Positions 8,227 to 15,570 of a DNA stretch of 64,000 bases are shown piece by piece. The notes beneath the pieces were generated by a model. The model saw nothing but the letters and a program-made list of their open reading frames with translations, was not told where the DNA came from and did no database searches. The stretch comes from Bradyrhizobium sacchari (GTDB lineage: Bacteria; Pseudomonadota; Alphaproteobacteria; Rhizobiales; Xanthobacteraceae): positions 63,739 through 127,738 of the forward strand of contig NZ_LWIG01000059.1 in assembly GCF_002068095.1 (NCBI RefSeq). The letters are read 5' to 3'. The translations under genes and the position numbers were made by a program. The stretch's first letter is position 1. The number at the start of each line of letters is the position of its first letter.

Positions 8227-8651
8227 GGCGAGGAGGCATCAAGGCCGGACAGGTCTGAACGTGCCCCCTTCCGCCGTGAAAGGGTGAGTGATCGATCAGG
8301 TCCCCAGAGGACTGACCCTGGTCTATATTGCAGGTCTTATTCTACGCAGGCGTTTTTGACTGGCCCGCGCCTTGATCAATAGACAGGTGACAGACTGCTG
8401 TCTTCTAGATCAAACACCGATGTTGATAGTTGATAGAGATCTGATTGGGGGTCGCGCTTTGGCGACCTCGTTTCTGTTAATCACCTACGGCAAGACCGCC
8501 GCGTTAGGCAAAAACCAAAGCACGCTCAACGCCACGCGCGTGAGTGGTGTCGAATTGATAAGATCCGCACAAAGCCGTCAGGTTCACTACACTTGCCGCG
8601 GGCTGGAGGAGACCTTCAAGTGCCTTCAGGCGCTCAATGCGCAAACGGTGC

Positions 8652-8667
8652 TGGCACGGCCGTTGCT
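8652..8667 (+). promoter_or_regulatory. RpoN (sigma-54) -24/-12 promoter
   Basis: TGGCACG, four bases, then TTGCT: an exact match to the sigma-54 consensus with the correct spacing between the GG and GC elements. It points at the thioredoxin-HAD-UbiA fusion gene whose start is about 150 bp downstream. In rhizobia such promoters are usually driven by NifA or NtrC. I looked for an upstream TGT-N10-ACA NifA site within about 250 bp and did not find an exact one. Confidence 0.65.
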
Positions 8668-8817
8668 ATTGAGATGTGGCAACACTGAGTTGGGCCGAGT
8701 TCACTCAGATACGAAGATGAGCGCCACTCTCCTTCCGCTGAAAACGCTCTCCCCGCATTTCTGAAAGGGCGGGCTCGCGCACAATGTGCGTGTACCGCAA
8801 TAGCGTTAGAGAGCAAC

Positions 8818-10731
8818 ATGGTGCTGCGTGTGGCGTCCATCGTTCCCCCAATTAAAGTGGAGAGCTGGTTGCGCGGCCAGCCCCTCACGAGCTTCCAGCC
8901 CGGGAAAGTGTACATCATCCAATTTTGGGCCGCTTGGTGCGGCGCATGTGTGGCAGCAATATCCAATCTGATCCAGCTACAAGAGACGTATAAAGATAGC
9001 GGACTTGAGATCATCGGAATCGCAGCATGCGAACGCACTCCGACGCCGGACGAGGGTCGAACCAGGTTGGACGCATGGTTGACCGAAACGTTCCCGAATC
9101 TAAATTATCGGATCGCGTTGGACGACACGGGTGAAATGAAAACGCTTTGGATGGACGCCACCGTGTCTTTCCGAATTCCTACTTGCTTTGTCATCGATCG
9201 TGAGGGCTACGTCGCCTTTATCGGTGATCCGGCCCGATTGGGCGACGTTTTGCCAACAGTTCTCCAAGGCATCCGGCGCACTAGTGATGATGCTACACTG
9301 GCGGATGCGGAATTGTCTCACGAAAAACCTTTGGTAGTAGATCTAGACGGATCGTTGCTGCTCACAAATCTGCGGTATGAGTCGTTCTTAAACGTATTGC
9401 ATCTCGGGTTCCCCGCGAGTTTTGCAGCGGTCCGCGCCCTGGCCAATGGCAAAGCGGCCGCCGAAAATGATTTGGCCGAAGCATCCGAACTGGATTATGC
9501 GACTCTCCCGTACAACGCCCGCGTTATGGAACTAATCCAGGCAGCCAAAGAACGAGGCACGAAGGTTTACTTGGCCACCGCAGCCAACGCGAAGCACACC
9601 AAGGCCATCGCAGACCACTTTGGCATTTTCGATGGCTGGTTTGCTTCTGACGCAAACACGAGTTTGTCGGGATCTTTGAAGGCTGAGACACTCACGGCTG
9701 CCTTCGGCAAGAACGGCTTTGATTACATCGGCAACACTCCCGCAGATTTACCAGTGTGGGAGATTGCCAACAAAGCCTACGTGGTCGGCCATTCCAATTC
9801 AGTAAAGCGCCGGCTCGTGGCGCTCAAGAGTAACCACGTCGCATTAGATCACTCGAACGCGACCAGCGCGGCGTGGTTCAAGGCTCTTCGGGTCCACCAA
9901 TTTGTCAAGAACCTTCTTATCTTTGTGCCATCGGCGACCTCGCATCAATTTACGTTGGCCAAAATCATCGCAGATGTAATCGCGTTTCTTGCTTTTTGTG
10001 TTTGTGCGTCGGCCGTCTACATTCTCAACGATCTGCTAGATCTTAAATCTGACCGCGCGCACCCCCGCAAGCGTGCTCGTCCCTTTGCGAGTGGCCTTCT
10101 CGAATTGCGGACCGGCTTGCTGATCGTTCCGGCGCTCCTCATATTGTCTTTGATGTTGTCGACCACAATCTCACTTGAGTTTGTCGGCGTATTGGCGGGC
10201 TATTTTGTTCTAACGAGTGCCTATTCTCTTTATTTGAAGCGAAAGATGATTGTGGACGTCGTGGTGCTGGCAATGCTCTACGCGACACGCGTTCTTGCGG
10301 GCGGCGTGGCAGCTGAAATTCAACTTTCGCAGTGGCTCTTCATGTTCTCTATGTTCATTTTCACCTCGCTCGCGCTAATCAAGCGGTACGTTGAGCTGTC
10401 GACGAGACTCGACCGCGGCCTCCCGGATCGTTCAGATCGTGACTATAGGGGCGGAGATGCTGACATCGTTGTCACTTTAGCTGCTGCCTCTGGCTTGAAT
10501 GCTATTACGATTTTTGCACTCTATGTTGCATCACCGGATGTGCAGATGCTGTATCGACATCCGAAGGCACTGTGGCTCATTTGTCCAATTCTTCTGTATT
10601 GGATTGGCAGGGCGCTTATGATGGCGAACCGGCGTCTAATGCACGACGACCCTATTGTCTTCGCACTTACGGACCGTATCAGCGCGATTGCCATCGCTTC
10701 GATTGTTGCCGTAGTTATACTCGCCATTTGA
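8818..10731 (+). CDS. thioredoxin-HAD-UbiA prenyltransferase triple-domain fusion
   Basis: A 637-residue protein with three parts. Residues about 1-165 form a TlpA/redoxin-like domain with the active site WCGAC. Residues about 175-345 are HAD-like, beginning VVDLDGSLL (motif DxDG). Residues about 355-637 are a polytopic UbiA-family prenyltransferase with the first diphosphate motif in NDLLDLKSDRAHPRKRARP and a second polar loop DRSDRDYRGGD. HAD-UbiA fusions resemble decaprenyl-phosphate phosphoribosyltransferases and NoeC, the UbiA-family protein implicated in arabinosylation of Azorhizobium Nod factors. The added redox domain is unusual. No signal peptide precedes the thioredoxin domain, so it should face the cytoplasm. 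AGAGAG precedes the ATG. An RpoN promoter lies upstream. Confidence 0.85.
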   Translation: MVLRVASIVPPIKVESWLRGQPLTSFQPGKVYIIQFWAAWCGACVAAISNLIQLQETYKDSGLEIIGIAACERTPTPDEGRTRLDAWLTETFPNLNYRIALDDTGEMKTLWMDATVSFRIPTCFVIDREGYVAFIGDPARLGDVLPTVLQGIRRTSDDATLADAELSHEKPLVVDLDGSLLLTNLRYESFLNVLHLGFPASFAAVRALANGKAAAENDLAEASELDYATLPYNARVMELIQAAKERGTKVYLATAANAKHTKAIADHFGIFDGWFASDANTSLSGSLKAETLTAAFGKNGFDYIGNTPADLPVWEIANKAYVVGHSNSVKRRLVALKSNHVALDHSNATSAAWFKALRVHQFVKNLLIFVPSATSHQFTLAKIIADVIAFLAFCVCASAVYILNDLLDLKSDRAHPRKRARPFASGLLELRTGLLIVPALLILSLMLSTTISLEFVGVLAGYFVLTSAYSLYLKRKMIVDVVVLAMLYATRVLAGGVAAEIQLSQWLFMFSMFIFTSLALIKRYVELSTRLDRGLPDRSDRDYRGGDADIVVTLAAASGLNAITIFALYVASPDVQMLYRHPKALWLICPILLYWIGRALMMANRRLMHDDPIVFALTDRISAIAIASIVAVVILAI

Positions 10732-10929
10732 CGCATTCTAGATTGCTTCCTGGGCGGCATTGGCTTGATGCGCTCGTCGCCTCCATACCTCGCGACAGCG
10801 CGCAGGACAGAAATACTCGAGGTCGGACTATGCGGCGGTCGCGTGCGTTGAGAGTGACGTGGACACAAGCTGGCGGGACATGGTTGAGGACCTGGCTGAT
10901 TTCGCGATGGCGACGGGCGACGGCGGAGA

Positions 10930-11110
10930 TCGTGACGGACCTCCGGGGTCTGCCATGAATATCTGCGGCAACGTAGACAGAGGCCAAGTAGCTGCGCGAC
11001 AGCGATTGCTCCTCGATGCTACCTACCACAGCTCGGAATGACGGCCGTGGTCGGCACTCGATGAGCTGGCCGCGAGGTTCAACGATGTCGTAAGCCTTTG
11101 TCGCTGAGCA
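10930..11110 (-). pseudogene. possible IS5-family transposase C-terminal remnant
   Basis: On the minus strand a frame reads KAYDIVEPRGQLIE, then a short degraded part, then SRSYLASVYVAA. This resembles the DKAYD...L-x-E and ARNYLAS-x-x-x-AA segments near the C-terminus of IS5/IS427-type transposases. The middle is shortened, no start or ends of an IS are visible, and the similarity is weak. Confidence 0.3.
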
Positions 11111-11226
11111 TGTGTAGTGCACTCTATCAATCCTGGGAGGAGATGGCTGGCCTCGGGCCAGTTAAAATCGTCTCGGGAGCTGATCCATCGAAAGGGGCGT
11201 CCCCTTCGAGCTGGCAGGAGGAGCCT

Positions 11227-12474
11227 ATGCTAAGAGATAACCACTTTGCCAACGGAAGAACGTTGTCAGTCTTGCTCGATGGGAGTTTGCTAGCTCTTTC
11301 TGCCGTAACCACAGTCATCCTCTTTGCTCGGCTGCTATACTACAGCAGGTACGGCCTCGGAATCATGGTGGATGGTCTCTACCTCAACTCTATTGCGAAC
11401 CCATTCGCCTACGCGATCAATAGTCCGCCTTCCCTTTTCGGCTTCGTCTATCATTGGCCATATCAGTGGGCGGATGGCGACATCGCAGTGCTTCGCATGG
11501 CGAACGTCACACTCACCATGGCACTGAGCTGGATTCTCAGCTATCTGATGGTCGGGCGCCTCTGGAGAGTGAGCTGGCCGCATGCTGCGGTGCTATCGGC
11601 GGGCATCGCCAGCATGGCATTAGTCGCCTTTCACCTCTGGCTGCTCACCCCCAACTACTTTATACTGAACATTCAATCGGTCTTGATGGTGATGATCGGT
11701 CTGCTGCTAGGCGATCGGCCGGGACGCATGCGCCAAGTCTTGGGGTGTATCCTGGTCGGCGTTGGCGGCTGGTGCTGCTTCATGGCCAAGCTGACTACCG
11801 CTGCGGCCATTGCGCTGATCGTTGGGCTTTATGTCATTTTGCGCCGAAAGTCGCCGCTGCTCGTGGTCGGCTCGGCGCTGGTCGCGCTCTCGCTACTCAT
11901 AGTTACCGCGTACTTGATCGACGGTGGCATCGCCGGGCTGGTAGGCCGTATGGTCAACAGCGCCAAGATTGAAGTTCTGCTGGGCAGCGGGCACGAGGTG
12001 GCTAGCATGTTCAGGATCGACTGGCTCGCCACCAGTCGCTCACAGCTCGCTATCGCTGCGGTGGCGGCGACTGCCCTTCTGCTCAGCACTCTCATGGAGC
12101 CTACGCAGAGGTTGATCCGATCGCTGGCTCGCACTGCGGTGTTGATCTTAACCATTGCGATTGCGCTGCTGGGGATCGATCCGATCGGCATCGATCCCTC
12201 GACCGTATTCTTGGTGGCCGTCTTCACATGCCTTGGCGCGACGCTTTATCGGGATGGAATGGTTCTGCGCTGCCAGGCTCCGACCAGCATCGCTCTAGCG
12301 CTGACCTTTTTGATTCTGCCGCACCTGTCCGCGTTGGGCTCCGCTGTCAATTACTGCTGGATGCTCGCGGTCGTTGCTTTCCTGAGCCCTCTTGCGCAAA
12401 CCGGACGTAGCGCCGCCACCCTGCTGCCCCTAACGGTGTTGGCACAATTGCTTACTAGATCGCGGGCGATATAG
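11227..12474 (+). CDS. polytopic membrane protein, possible truncated GT-C-type glycosyltransferase
   Basis: ATG 11227 is preceded by a strong AGGAGG. The 415-residue protein has about ten hydrophobic segments starting near residue 15. The first periplasmic loop has DG-x-YLNSIANPFAY, reminiscent of the acidic first loop of GT-C glycosyltransferases that use polyprenyl-phosphate sugars. No soluble C-terminal domain follows, and the frame ends at the point where a truncated PQQ dehydrogenase begins on the other strand, so the 3' end may be lost. It lies about 500 bp downstream of the UbiA fusion gene on the same strand; a shared role in lipid-linked sugar transfer is an inference. Confidence 0.6.
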   Translation: MLRDNHFANGRTLSVLLDGSLLALSAVTTVILFARLLYYSRYGLGIMVDGLYLNSIANPFAYAINSPPSLFGFVYHWPYQWADGDIAVLRMANVTLTMALSWILSYLMVGRLWRVSWPHAAVLSAGIASMALVAFHLWLLTPNYFILNIQSVLMVMIGLLLGDRPGRMRQVLGCILVGVGGWCCFMAKLTTAAAIALIVGLYVILRRKSPLLVVGSALVALSLLIVTAYLIDGGIAGLVGRMVNSAKIEVLLGSGHEVASMFRIDWLATSRSQLAIAAVAATALLLSTLMEPTQRLIRSLARTAVLILTIAIALLGIDPIGIDPSTVFLVAVFTCLGATLYRDGMVLRCQAPTSIALALTFLILPHLSALGSAVNYCWMLAVVAFLSPLAQTGRSAATLLPLTVLAQLLTRSRAI

Positions 12475-13247: not shown

Positions 13248-15412
13248 TCAGACTGTTGGAAATTCCGCGATACGGAGTCTCGAGCAGCCGTAGGGAATGA
13301 GCTCGACTACGGTCTCGGGTTGGTTGGTCTTGACCGGACTCATGGGCACCGGCGCTGCATTGGCCCCGTTCATGCCCCATTGAGGGACTAGCTTCGCCTT
13401 CACTCTAAGAAGCATCGGGACATCGTTTTGCGAGGGAAGATATTCGTTCGAGCCAGGCGCCCGAACTGGCTCTCCCTTTTGAGCAAACGGCATTGAACTG
13501 ATCTTATTGAAGATCATCTCGCACTGTGGGTTGTTCCTATCGATCGAGAGCGCGTAATTCCAATCGGTGGTCGGCGCGATATGCCAGTCGACACAGCCGA
13601 GCGGCGCCGAAACCGGCAGCTCGTCCGTTCTATAAGCGGTCAGCGTCGGAATTCTCTCGAAGGCCACCCCAATTCGAAGGACGAAAAAGAGCGGCCCCCA
13701 GGCAACGGCCACGGCGTTGTTATCACGCGTTTCTGTACGTATCTTGAAATTGAAGTTCAACGTAACGACGTCGCCGTCCTTCCATTCGCGGTCCACCTTC
13801 AGCATGGTGCCACTCTGCGGTCGCCACGGGGTCGCGTTGCCCGAGACGGAAACTTCGGCTTGGCTTGACCACTTAGGAATCCTGAAGTGAAGCGGGAAGC
13901 GGACCGGCTCCTTGCATCGGACGGTCACACGTACGCGGTCGGAAAACGGATAGTCTGTCTCGACGGCAAGCTCTATCGGCGCACCTTTTCCGATTTTGCC
14001 ATTAACGCGACAGGGACCATAGCTCATCGCTGCCAAGCCCTCGTCCGCGGTGGCCATCCACATGGAGGCTACATAACGTGGCCATGGCGCATGCACGTCG
14101 GCCAAGGGCCCCGGATAACAGGGCTTGAATCCGTAGATATTCCCGGCGTCGGTCCCCGGCGAATTCCATGGACGCTTGGCAACCGATACCAGGACCTGAT
14201 TCGACTGCTGGTAGAACTGCCGCGCCCACATGTCGGCCGTACAAGCGCCAGGGAAAGCGTTGAAGATCAGTTGCTCGATACGATCGGCGACCTCCACGTT
14301 ACCCATGACCGCCACGATGTTCTCGAGAGAGAAAAATGACTGCGCGACAGCACACGTCTCGCTCCCAACGATAGGGTCGGTGCTTACGAACCATCCATCG
14401 GCTCCCCATCTGCCTCCTACCTGACCATAAGTTTGATCGAGATTGGCCATTCCTTGCACAACACTTTCGCTTTCACTCCGATCACCGGAGATGAGCGAGT
14501 GGAACGCGGGATAGCTGAGAGCCATCACTGCGGTGAAGCCGTGACGGCCAATTGGGGTCTGGCCTTCATAGGCAGGTTCACCGGCCTTGCCCTTGGCATC
14601 GCAATAATGCGGGACGAAGTCGCACATCTCCGCAAAAGCCTTGGGGTCTTTTGGAAAGTTCCTGAAATAGTTCTCGAAGTCATCGATAGAACGCTTCGTG
14701 CAACGTTGCAGCAAGGCAAGCACATCCGCATCGCCGGTCTGGTTATAGTACCAGATGCCCGCACTCAGCAGCACGCCGGACCATTTCGAGCTGAATACCG
14801 CGAGGTTCTCGGGTTCGCGCACACTATCCGCATAATCCAAGAAGCGGCGAACAAGCTGAATGGCTCGCTGATCGCCGGTCAACTCATGGTATTCCGGCAT
14901 GACTCTGGCCAACCATGACCACGCGATGACGCTCGGCGTCACGCTGGTGAGGTCTTTGACTGAAAGCGCGTGGTCATATAGGGTTTTCCGACGGCTTTAA
15001 GCTCGTCGTCATGAAGGACACCGGCGAGCATCGTCAAACCCTCAAGCCAACGCGGTACGAAACGAGCATTGGTGTCGAACACGCCGTCGCTGACATTCTT
15101 ACCAGTATCGCCTTTCCATCCAGATTGCCCAACGATATCCCACAGTCCGGGAAGATCACGAGTGATACCGCGCGCCTGCAAATTAAGTTGGTCGAGGAGC
15201 CACCCCGTTGGACGGACCGCACCCAGCGGCAGTTTGACGTAACGGCTTCGGCCCAATGGGGCGCGATTGTTCGGATAATTTGCGTTTGCCGCCCAGGATG
15301 GTTCGTGGTCAGCAGGTAAGACCCCCGAAGGAGCGCCTTCGACAACGTTGGAGCTAAGCACGCCGGAAGCAGCGACCGCAGCAATGAGTTCACAAAACTC
15401 GCGTCTATTCAT
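13248..15412 (-). pseudogene. GH127-family beta-L-arabinofuranosidase, interrupted by a frameshift
   Basis: The start at 15412 (AAGGA upstream) gives a Tat-type leader MNRREFCELIAAVAAS, then the GH127/DUF1680 N-terminal region (PLGAVRPTGWLLDQL, LPGLWD). The frame breaks near 14985-14990 in a run of four A residues; one extra A would join it to the long frame ending at 13248. The joined protein has about 720 residues. The zinc/catalytic segment SETCA is present. The vicinal cysteine pair expected later (C417-C418 in HypBA1, nucleophile plus zinc ligand) appears only as PCYPG. The C-terminal ELIPYGCSRLRIAEF matches the family. The family removes beta-L-arabinofuranose, for example from hydroxyproline-rich plant glycoproteins. 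It was probably exported; activity is doubtful. Confidence 0.8.
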
Positions 15413-15470
15413 TTGCATTCCTTCGGAAGAACTTCGATCTAAGTCCGGTCGGAATTCGACCTGAACAGCG

Positions 15471-15570
15471 CCCCTCTTGGTCTCGAAGATGAGCTCGGCA
15501 TCTGATGCGCCGATGTCGGTTCGTCTAAACCGCCCTGACAATTTCGAGACGAATTTGACAGACGTACCCT
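15471..15570 (-). repeat. 100 bp repeated upstream element, copy 1
   Basis: Shares a core of 20 bases (ctgatgcgccgatgtcggtt on the plus strand) and flanking blocks with copies at 18330-18429 and 21194-21292. It lies about 60 bp upstream of the GH127 start in sense orientation. On the gene strand it contains GTTTAGAC within GGTT-N6-AACC, close to GntR-type operators. It could equally be the end of a lost insertion sequence. Confidence 0.6.

Follow-up and report, generated by a model that had tools for sequence, protein, structure and literature searches.

How does a redoxin domain come to stand in front of an enzyme that would attach a pentose to a lipid carrier? The question is raised by a single gene within a 64,000-nucleotide stretch of Bradyrhizobium sacchari DNA (contig NZ_LWIG01000059.1, positions 63,739 to 127,738 of the forward strand; hereafter the window, numbered from its first letter), in which a redoxin, a HAD-type phosphatase and a UbiA-type phosphoribosyltransferase are joined in one chain. 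Our answer is that the promoter and first domain of this gene were probably captured from a redoxin-TPR gene, which would have placed an enzyme of lipid-linked pentofuranose synthesis under nitrogen-fixation-type control. The gene and the DNA before it were read as follows.

8556..8571, + strand: imperfect NifA activator-like site with one mismatch, TGA-N10-ACA (pattern scan)
8576..8591, + strand: imperfect NifA activator-like site with one mismatch, CGT-N10-ACA, which lines up with comparable sites in relatives (alignment)
8652..8667, + strand: sigma54 -24/-12 promoter TGGCACGGCCGTTGCT, zero mismatches
8668..8817, + strand: leader, part of about 270 columns in common with redoxin-TPR genes at 68% identity (upstream alignment)
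8818..10731, + strand: fusion gene, redoxin / HAD phosphatase / UbiA-type phosphoribosyltransferase, 637 aa (single open reading frame, Pfam, NCBIfam)
8818..9312, + strand: redoxin part, aa 1-165, with a redoxin-TPR gene as its most likely source
8938..8949, + strand: CxxC motif, Cys41-Gly-Ala-Cys44 (WCGAC), from the sequence
9310..9327, + strand: fusion junction, where DNA homology to redoxin-TPR genes stops and HAD-UbiA homology starts (junction DNA comparison)
9328..9852, + strand: HAD phosphoribose-phosphatase part, aa 171-345, with Asp175/Asp177 (9340-9348), Lys288 and Asp310 kept (alignment)
9853..10728, + strand: UbiA-type polyprenyl-phosphate phosphoribosyltransferase part, aa 346-637, with NDxxDxxxD at 10027-10053 (models, alignment, fold)

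The first-pass annotation, made from the letters of the window alone, had described one protein joining thioredoxin, HAD and UbiA domains, and the domain searches bore this out. Within the single 637-aa frame Pfam placed Redoxin/AhpC-TSA at 24-135 (Redoxin itself at 25-135, E 1.4e-12), a weak HAD match under cut-off at 203-313 and UbiA at 387-606 (3.3e-23); the NCBIfam HAD-UbiA model PRK08238 took in residues 164-637 with 597 bits vs a cut-off of 351. The full protein was sought in a set of 265 Bradyrhizobium genomes (numbered G###, G000 being the window genome; fetched loci are numbered L###), and the triple architecture recurred uninterrupted in at least 10 of them (G000, G051, G193, G207, G210, G145, G015, G094, G185 and G105), with the nine other fusions 68-85% identical to the window protein and G051 a fusion-bearing assembly independent of the window. 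In four more genomes (G053, G004, G054 and G190) a single base inserted at the junction separates the redoxin from HAD-UbiA. Among 80 loci compared, a redoxin stood beside HAD-UbiA only in L005 (B. hipponense aSej3, probably the same record as G051); a candidate from outside Bradyrhizobium, a match over 25-625 in Pacificibacter (L034), was rejected as spurious. Neither the fusion nor such a promoter capture is described in the open-access literature searched, judged by title and abstract opening; the HAD-UbiA reaction is already known from Citrobacter ORF15 (PMC11127046), and it is the fusion and its origin that appear to be new.

The promoter TGGCACGGCCGTTGCT is the sole zero-mismatch match to the sigma54 -24/-12 element used with NifA in the 64 kb, where matches with at most one mismatch number 3 vs 0.8 expected. 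The strict pattern TGGCAC-N5-TTGC was found upstream of 8/10 fusions, 4/4 splits and 39/46 redoxin-TPR genes, but of none of 96 distinct unfused HAD-UbiA genes (99 less two duplicates and one masked-upstream locus, upstream meaning 600 nt in front of the open frame plus 90 nt); in shuffled fusion upstreams its frequency was 0.001. When redoxin genes were counted together, fused, split or not (L196, L198, L202 and one L194 fragment being omitted), 61 of 71 had the pattern, often about 165 nt before the start. Among the genes with a sigma54 site, the exact NifA activator pattern TGT-N10-ACA precedes 5/8 fusions, 4/4 splits and 33/39 redoxin-TPR genes, mostly at about -111 or -83 relative to that site; it was seen upstream of only 3/10 stand-alone redoxins, and at 0.036 per 200 nt in shuffles. 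The RpoN promoter that had been proposed for the window gene thus stands as a perfect sigma54 site, while each NifA-type site there carries one mismatch; the relatives indicate that this symbiosis-region gene has a promoter of the NifA/sigma54 class.

The likeness extends beyond the promoter motifs. When 350 nt of upstream DNA were compared, each of the 14 fusion and split genes found a match among 47 upstream stretches of redoxin-TPR genes. In 12 cases the match covers 177-339 columns at 65-73% identity (the window over 270 columns, 68%, E 1e-10); upstream stretches of unfused HAD-UbiA genes gave none. The coding DNA leads to the same family: residues 1 to about 165 of the window protein share about 65% identity with the N-terminal portion of genus proteins of about 400 aa, here called redoxin-TPR, which begin with a CxxC-bearing redoxin and match TPR weakly in their C-terminal part. 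In a maximum likelihood tree of 72 redoxins (midpoint root, the remote L202 forming one extreme; apart from the splits, frames that contain a stop or fall short of 150 aa were omitted), the 14 fusion and split redoxins formed one clade (99/95) inside the redoxin-TPR part, and the splits formed one clade (100/97) that grouped with four fusions (98/83). At the junction the split genes have one base more than the fusions and the redoxin-TPR genes, so that redoxin and HAD-UbiA are read in two different frames, which overlap there; in 3/4 splits the HAD-UbiA frame starts with AADTE, which is in-frame in redoxin-TPR genes. The one clade and the common extra base fit a single fusion and one later uncoupling. 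An assembly or sequencing error joining two separate genes could be read from the different frames of the two parts in those four genomes; the frame is nevertheless uninterrupted in ten genomes, and its presence in independent genomes excludes a sequencing join, while the split genes have their extra base at one common place and form one clade, and we regard such an error as practically dismissed. The common upstream DNA, the one redoxin clade and the presence of sigma54 sites before fusions but before 0/96 unfused genes together make capture of promoter and first domain the most likely origin, with the redoxin, leader and promoter of the fusion most likely coming from the redoxin-TPR family.

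That family is widespread: the redoxin is present in at least 85 of the 265 genomes (E 1e-20 or better), and redoxin genes were sampled from part of these matches, as 76 redoxin places in the fetched loci. Several different redoxin partners were considered and rejected, 47/47 sampled C-terminal parts being of one TPR-like family. In plasmids the redoxin was matched in 143 records at E 1e-5, of which 105 are from Rhizobium, Sinorhizobium, Mesorhizobium or Bradyrhizobium, and 25 records showed 60-80% identity; H58, a redoxin match in R. leguminosarum, was set aside, as no gene is annotated there. Redoxin-TPR genes with NifA/sigma54-type promoters occur in multiple copies (e.g. G053:C1:5596225 and G214:C1:7653872), and their TPR part evolves fast, with a median ratio of nonsynonymous (dN) to synonymous (dS) substitution rates of 0.50 (39 proteins of 365-400 aa with a clear start, as also for the redoxin-TPR values below; pairs in these dN/dS comparisons are not independent). 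The family may be related to FixW. Like it, FixW/TlpA-like rhizobial proteins are redoxins of symbiosis regions, a likeness drawn by description only: FixW is called TlpA-like in a passage of PMC6969944, and a passage of PMC3538637 places a NifA-autoregulated promoter ahead of the R. leguminosarum operon that includes fixW. The donor redoxins of Bradyrhizobium differ in that they mostly carry the TPR-like C-terminal part.

We examined if the redoxin domain is used as such in the fusions. CxxC is kept in 38/39 redoxin-TPR proteins vs 5/10 fusions, one of them shifted (p 0.0007 by Fisher test; relatedness is ignored in these tests), and in 1/4 splits. A cysteine is lost in each of G207, G145, G094 and G185; G193 has CxC and was scored altered, and G105, in which the motif (CAGC) is shifted by one residue, was scored kept. 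No cysteine pair in HAD or UbiA was specific to fusions when 10 fusions, 4 splits and 21 others were compared: C394 occurs in 10/10, 4/4 and 3/21 of them, and C396 and C589 each in 10/10, 4/4 and 15/21. The AlphaFold model gives ten-residue means of 73-96 for HAD and UbiA in predicted local distance difference test score (pLDDT), and about 50 for the redoxin, so that the geometry of CxxC relative to a cysteine pair is not readable from it. Among fusions the median dN/dS was 0.27 for the redoxin, 0.21 for HAD and 0.20 for UbiA; at dS 0.4-0.8 the fused redoxins gave 0.34 vs 0.26 for redoxin-TPR. The split redoxins gave 0.66-0.94 (3 pairs at low dS, 0.11-0.15, s054 being omitted) and the split HAD-UbiA 0.19-0.30 (6 pairs). 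Nor does the domain score as TlpA (NF047696 22.5 bits vs a cut-off of 230), and no hydrophobic N-terminal segment was seen by eye in the window protein. The periplasmic TlpA of rhizobia has a membrane anchor or signal; the fused redoxin would lie on the cytoplasmic side. The redox control of the pathway that the first-pass annotation had suggested is weakly supported, in view of the altered motifs, the lack of a fusion-specific cysteine pair and the relaxed selection on split redoxins, and redox control of HAD-UbiA is unlikely. The fused redoxin seems to be retained as a fold, in many cases with no thiol-enzyme role, and to come under relaxed selection once detached; in the window strain, too, it may be inert.

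The enzyme behind the redoxin is better defined. The UbiA part had been likened to phosphoribosyl-polyprenyl-phosphate synthases, and it groups with these rather than with quinone or heme prenyltransferases: it scored 150 bits (cut-off 207) with PRK12324, the mycobacterial-type decaprenyl-phosphate phosphoribosyltransferase, and 142.8 and 118.6 bits (cut-offs 234 and 474) with two further mycobacterial-type phosphoribosyltransferase models, vs 39.8 bits for cyoE and 27.3 for ubiA_proteo (cut-offs 210 and 275). The phosphoribosyltransferase 8j8j was its best PDB match both by sequence (4e-25) and by fold (template modeling score 0.82 by target length), and by its bit scores under the cut-offs the UbiA part is a relative, not a member, of the PRK12324 type. 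N404, D405, D408 and D412, and D175 and D177 of the HAD part, are invariant in the 25 sequences, out of 34 initially chosen, of the HAD-UbiA alignment. The idea that "GN" in place of "GD" in HAD motif IV marks an inactive phosphatase was rejected; GN or GH occurs in many unfused members, so the change is not specific to the fusion. By analogy of motif and fold the fusion is predicted to make polyprenyl-phosphate-ribose from phosphoribosyl pyrophosphate (PRPP). Passages of PMC11127046 report biochemical proof that ORF15 of Citrobacter youngae, of HAD-UbiA layout, makes farnesyl-phosphate-ribofuranose from PRPP, and that a mutant in its HAD Asp gives mainly the 5-phosphate product.

The proposal of a lipid-linked pentose pathway is likely correct. 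In G210 the fusion is followed by a DprE1-like gene (409.8 bits vs a cut-off of 500) and a DprE2-like gene (178 bits vs 250; PRK07102 320 vs 267), consecutive and on one strand. No DprE1/E2 remnant was found behind the window gene; among nine fusion loci scanned, G193 alone retains a fragment, of DprE1. The chromosome of the window strain carries a HAD-UbiA-type paralogue (G000:C1:754948-755826; L204 8942-10291, - strand), the front part of which is without a Pfam match; it lies near LptC-like, LptA-like and sigma54 (rpoN) genes, with DprE2-like and DprE1-like genes a few kb off. The DprE1/E2-like genes of G210 and of the strain's own chromosome make arabinose a possible end product, and ribose is equally possible in the window strain.

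Compared with known systems, the fusion resembles C. youngae O1 ORF15, as described in passages of PMC11127046 and likened here by layout, in having HAD (PRP) then UbiA in one chain and in retaining both NDxxDxxxD and the nucleophilic Asp of HAD; it differs by the redoxin before HAD and by the sigma54/NifA-type promoter, ORF15 lying in an O-antigen locus. The mycobacterial DPPR synthase Rv3806c (8j8j/8j8k) resembles the UbiA part in sequence and fold and has DprE1/DprE2 partners, as in G210 and on the window strain's own chromosome, but its solved chain of 302 aa has no room for a redoxin, and the mycobacterial phosphatase, Rv3807c, is separate and, according to a passage of PMC11127046, unrelated to HAD. 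The HAD-UbiA-GtrA-DprE1-DprE2 cluster of R. etli IE4803 (L260) has a HAD-UbiA 46.9% identical to the fusion, together with DprE1/E2-like genes; the match starts at fusion residue 171 and hence takes in no redoxin, and the cluster has GtrA and two hypothetical genes unrelated to the membrane gene of the window.

The 14 fusion and split genomes all carry nifH and a nodA over cut-off; a nodA over cut-off was found in 160/265 genomes of the genus. In G053, G210, G105 and G190, each a single contig, a nodA and nifH lie on either side of the gene. The relatives give direct examples of a symbiosis-region gene, and the location of the window gene would follow from theirs, nodA and nifH being off the window contig. 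The neighbouring membrane gene was read as follows.

11227..12474, + strand: 3'-truncated copy of a conserved membrane protein of about 627 aa, candidate glycosyltransferase of the GT-C type, linked neighbour (family comparison)

The window copy of this gene has 415 of about 627 aa, the C-terminal third being missing. Its relatives, mostly of about 600-630 aa, occur in 29/265 genomes, including 14/14 with the fusion or split genes (E up to 1.4e-75; that in G010 is a fragment), and within nodA-positive genomes the association with the fusion had a Fisher value of 1.7e-12, relatedness again ignored; its orientation relative to the fusion varies. A full-length relative has 13 hydrophobic segments in aa 1-425. 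No Pfam, NCBIfam or PDB profile match was obtained, and an AlphaFold2 model from two sequences had a mean pLDDT of 36. The possible GT-C-type neighbour of the first reading is a conserved membrane protein, here truncated, and a candidate GT-C transferase. After the first hydrophobic segment the window and L005 copies have VDG vs DEG in a consensus of 24. A gene of GH127, the beta-L-arabinofuranosidase family, lies further on in the window (13248-14942 and 14939-15541, - strand), its N-terminal part seemingly encoded in a second frame that overlaps the first; in L118 the homologues (9599-10066 and 10079-11770) are apparently in one frame. This puts an arabinose-active family near a pentose-lipid gene, in the window only among the fusion loci compared. 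In L129 (11270-13747, - strand) an epimerase and a class-III aminotransferase share one 825-aa frame, and in L127 they are separate neighbours.

Several observations weigh against an inert redoxin that arrived with a nitrogen-fixation promoter. The position of the fusion clade inside the redoxin-TPR part rests on midpoint rooting; the upstream match covers no more than 73 columns in G207 and 47 in G185, next to the start codon, and neither has a strict sigma54 site; no exact TGT-N10-ACA precedes the window gene, one-mismatch sites only. A full nifH lies far from the gene in G193, and the window genome carries nodA and nifH on contigs other than that of the window, which gave no match to either. 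DprE1-, DprE2- and NoeP-like genes were not found in the window (tblastn, 1e-8), the absence of DprE1/E2 being the part that counts here. For the redoxin itself, CxxC is normally placed in four fusions (G000, G051, G210 and G015), the dN/dS of fused redoxins (0.27) is close to that of redoxin-TPR (0.26), and the redoxin frames of the splits remain free of stops across 140-159 aa. The normal motif in four fusions and the constraint close to that of redoxin-TPR leave a redox or binding role possible in some strains. A working redox switch, in which CxxC would sense or set a thiol state, control HAD or UbiA and couple pentose supply to the redox state of the bacteroid, draws on these two points and on the shifted motif of G105; set against it are the loss or alteration of CxxC in 5/10 fusions and 3/4 splits and the fact that the conserved C394, C396 and C589 form no pair special to fusions, and we hold it to be very unlikely. 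A domain retained for binding or folding without catalysis, for instance to hold a partner or stabilise HAD-UbiA in bacteroids, would account for a fold constrained without its cysteines and for a fusion uninterrupted in 10/14 genomes. Yet a frameshift has uncoupled the redoxin in four genomes, after which selection on it relaxed while HAD-UbiA stayed intact, and constraint could equally come from the harm that a misfolded N-terminal domain would do to the rest of the chain; this explanation is doubtful, though a serious possibility.

The remaining alternative concerns the product. The first-pass annotation had seen a resemblance of the UbiA part to NoeC, and the gene might be of the noeC type, supplying polyprenyl-phosphate-arabinose for Nod-factor arabinosylation in early signalling. 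The NoeC/noeCNHOP promoter class differs from the sigma54 type. NoeC of Azorhizobium is, in passages of PMC5080398 and PMC2443382, also a UbiA-type phosphoribosyltransferase of a symbiosis region, and noeC, noeH and noeO correspond to three of the four steps of decaprenyl-phosphate-arabinose synthesis (passage of PMC5080398). In S. alkalisoli a row of UbiA-GtrA-FAD-SDR-hypothetical genes lies near a NodA-family gene, and its NoeC-like UbiA (387 aa) is 41.3% identical to the UbiA part of the fusion. The resemblance thus stood; the link to Nod factors is indirect. The noeCNHOP genes serve Nod-factor decoration, unlike the role proposed here, and control of the sigma54/NifA type points to the stage of nitrogen fixation; the R. 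etli HAD-UbiA, at 46.9% identity, is a closer match to the fusion than the S. alkalisoli UbiA, at 41.3%, and hhalign comparison found the membrane neighbour unrelated to the NoeP-like protein and to the R. etli hypothetical proteins. A noeC-type role is improbable.

The reading that we prefer, promoter and first-domain capture, can be put as a sequence of proposed steps. The 5' end of a redoxin-TPR gene would have been fused in frame to the front of a HAD-UbiA polyprenyl-phosphoribose synthase/phosphatase gene in a Bradyrhizobium symbiosis region, the captured segment comprising the donor's NifA/sigma54-type promoter, leader and first 165 or so codons. In the product, HAD would take off the 5' phosphate to leave polyprenyl-phosphate-ribofuranose, which the chromosomal DprE1/DprE2-like pair (in G210, the copies just downstream) could epimerise to arabinofuranose; the pentofuranose might then be transferred in the periplasm to a surface glycan of the bacteroid. 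The redoxin would mainly have travelled with the promoter and start region, having to fold within the chain, its thiol chemistry usually dispensable. The whole of this, that one regulatory fusion event created a nodule-stage pentofuranose pathway with an inert redoxin passenger, feeding a so far undescribed modification of the bacteroid surface with D-ribo- or D-arabinofuranose, seems to us evenly poised between right and wrong.

The locus may be a rare readable case of the entry of a gene into the symbiosis regulon, in which the likely donor family, the junction, the clade and the one-base uncoupling can each be traced. It also indicates that a domain fusion need not imply functional coupling, a caution for "Rosetta stone" reasoning. 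For the rhizobia, in which pentose transfer has been described for Nod factors (in passages of PMC5080398 and PMC2443382), it points to a testable lipid-linked pentofuranose pathway that would operate at the nodule stage.

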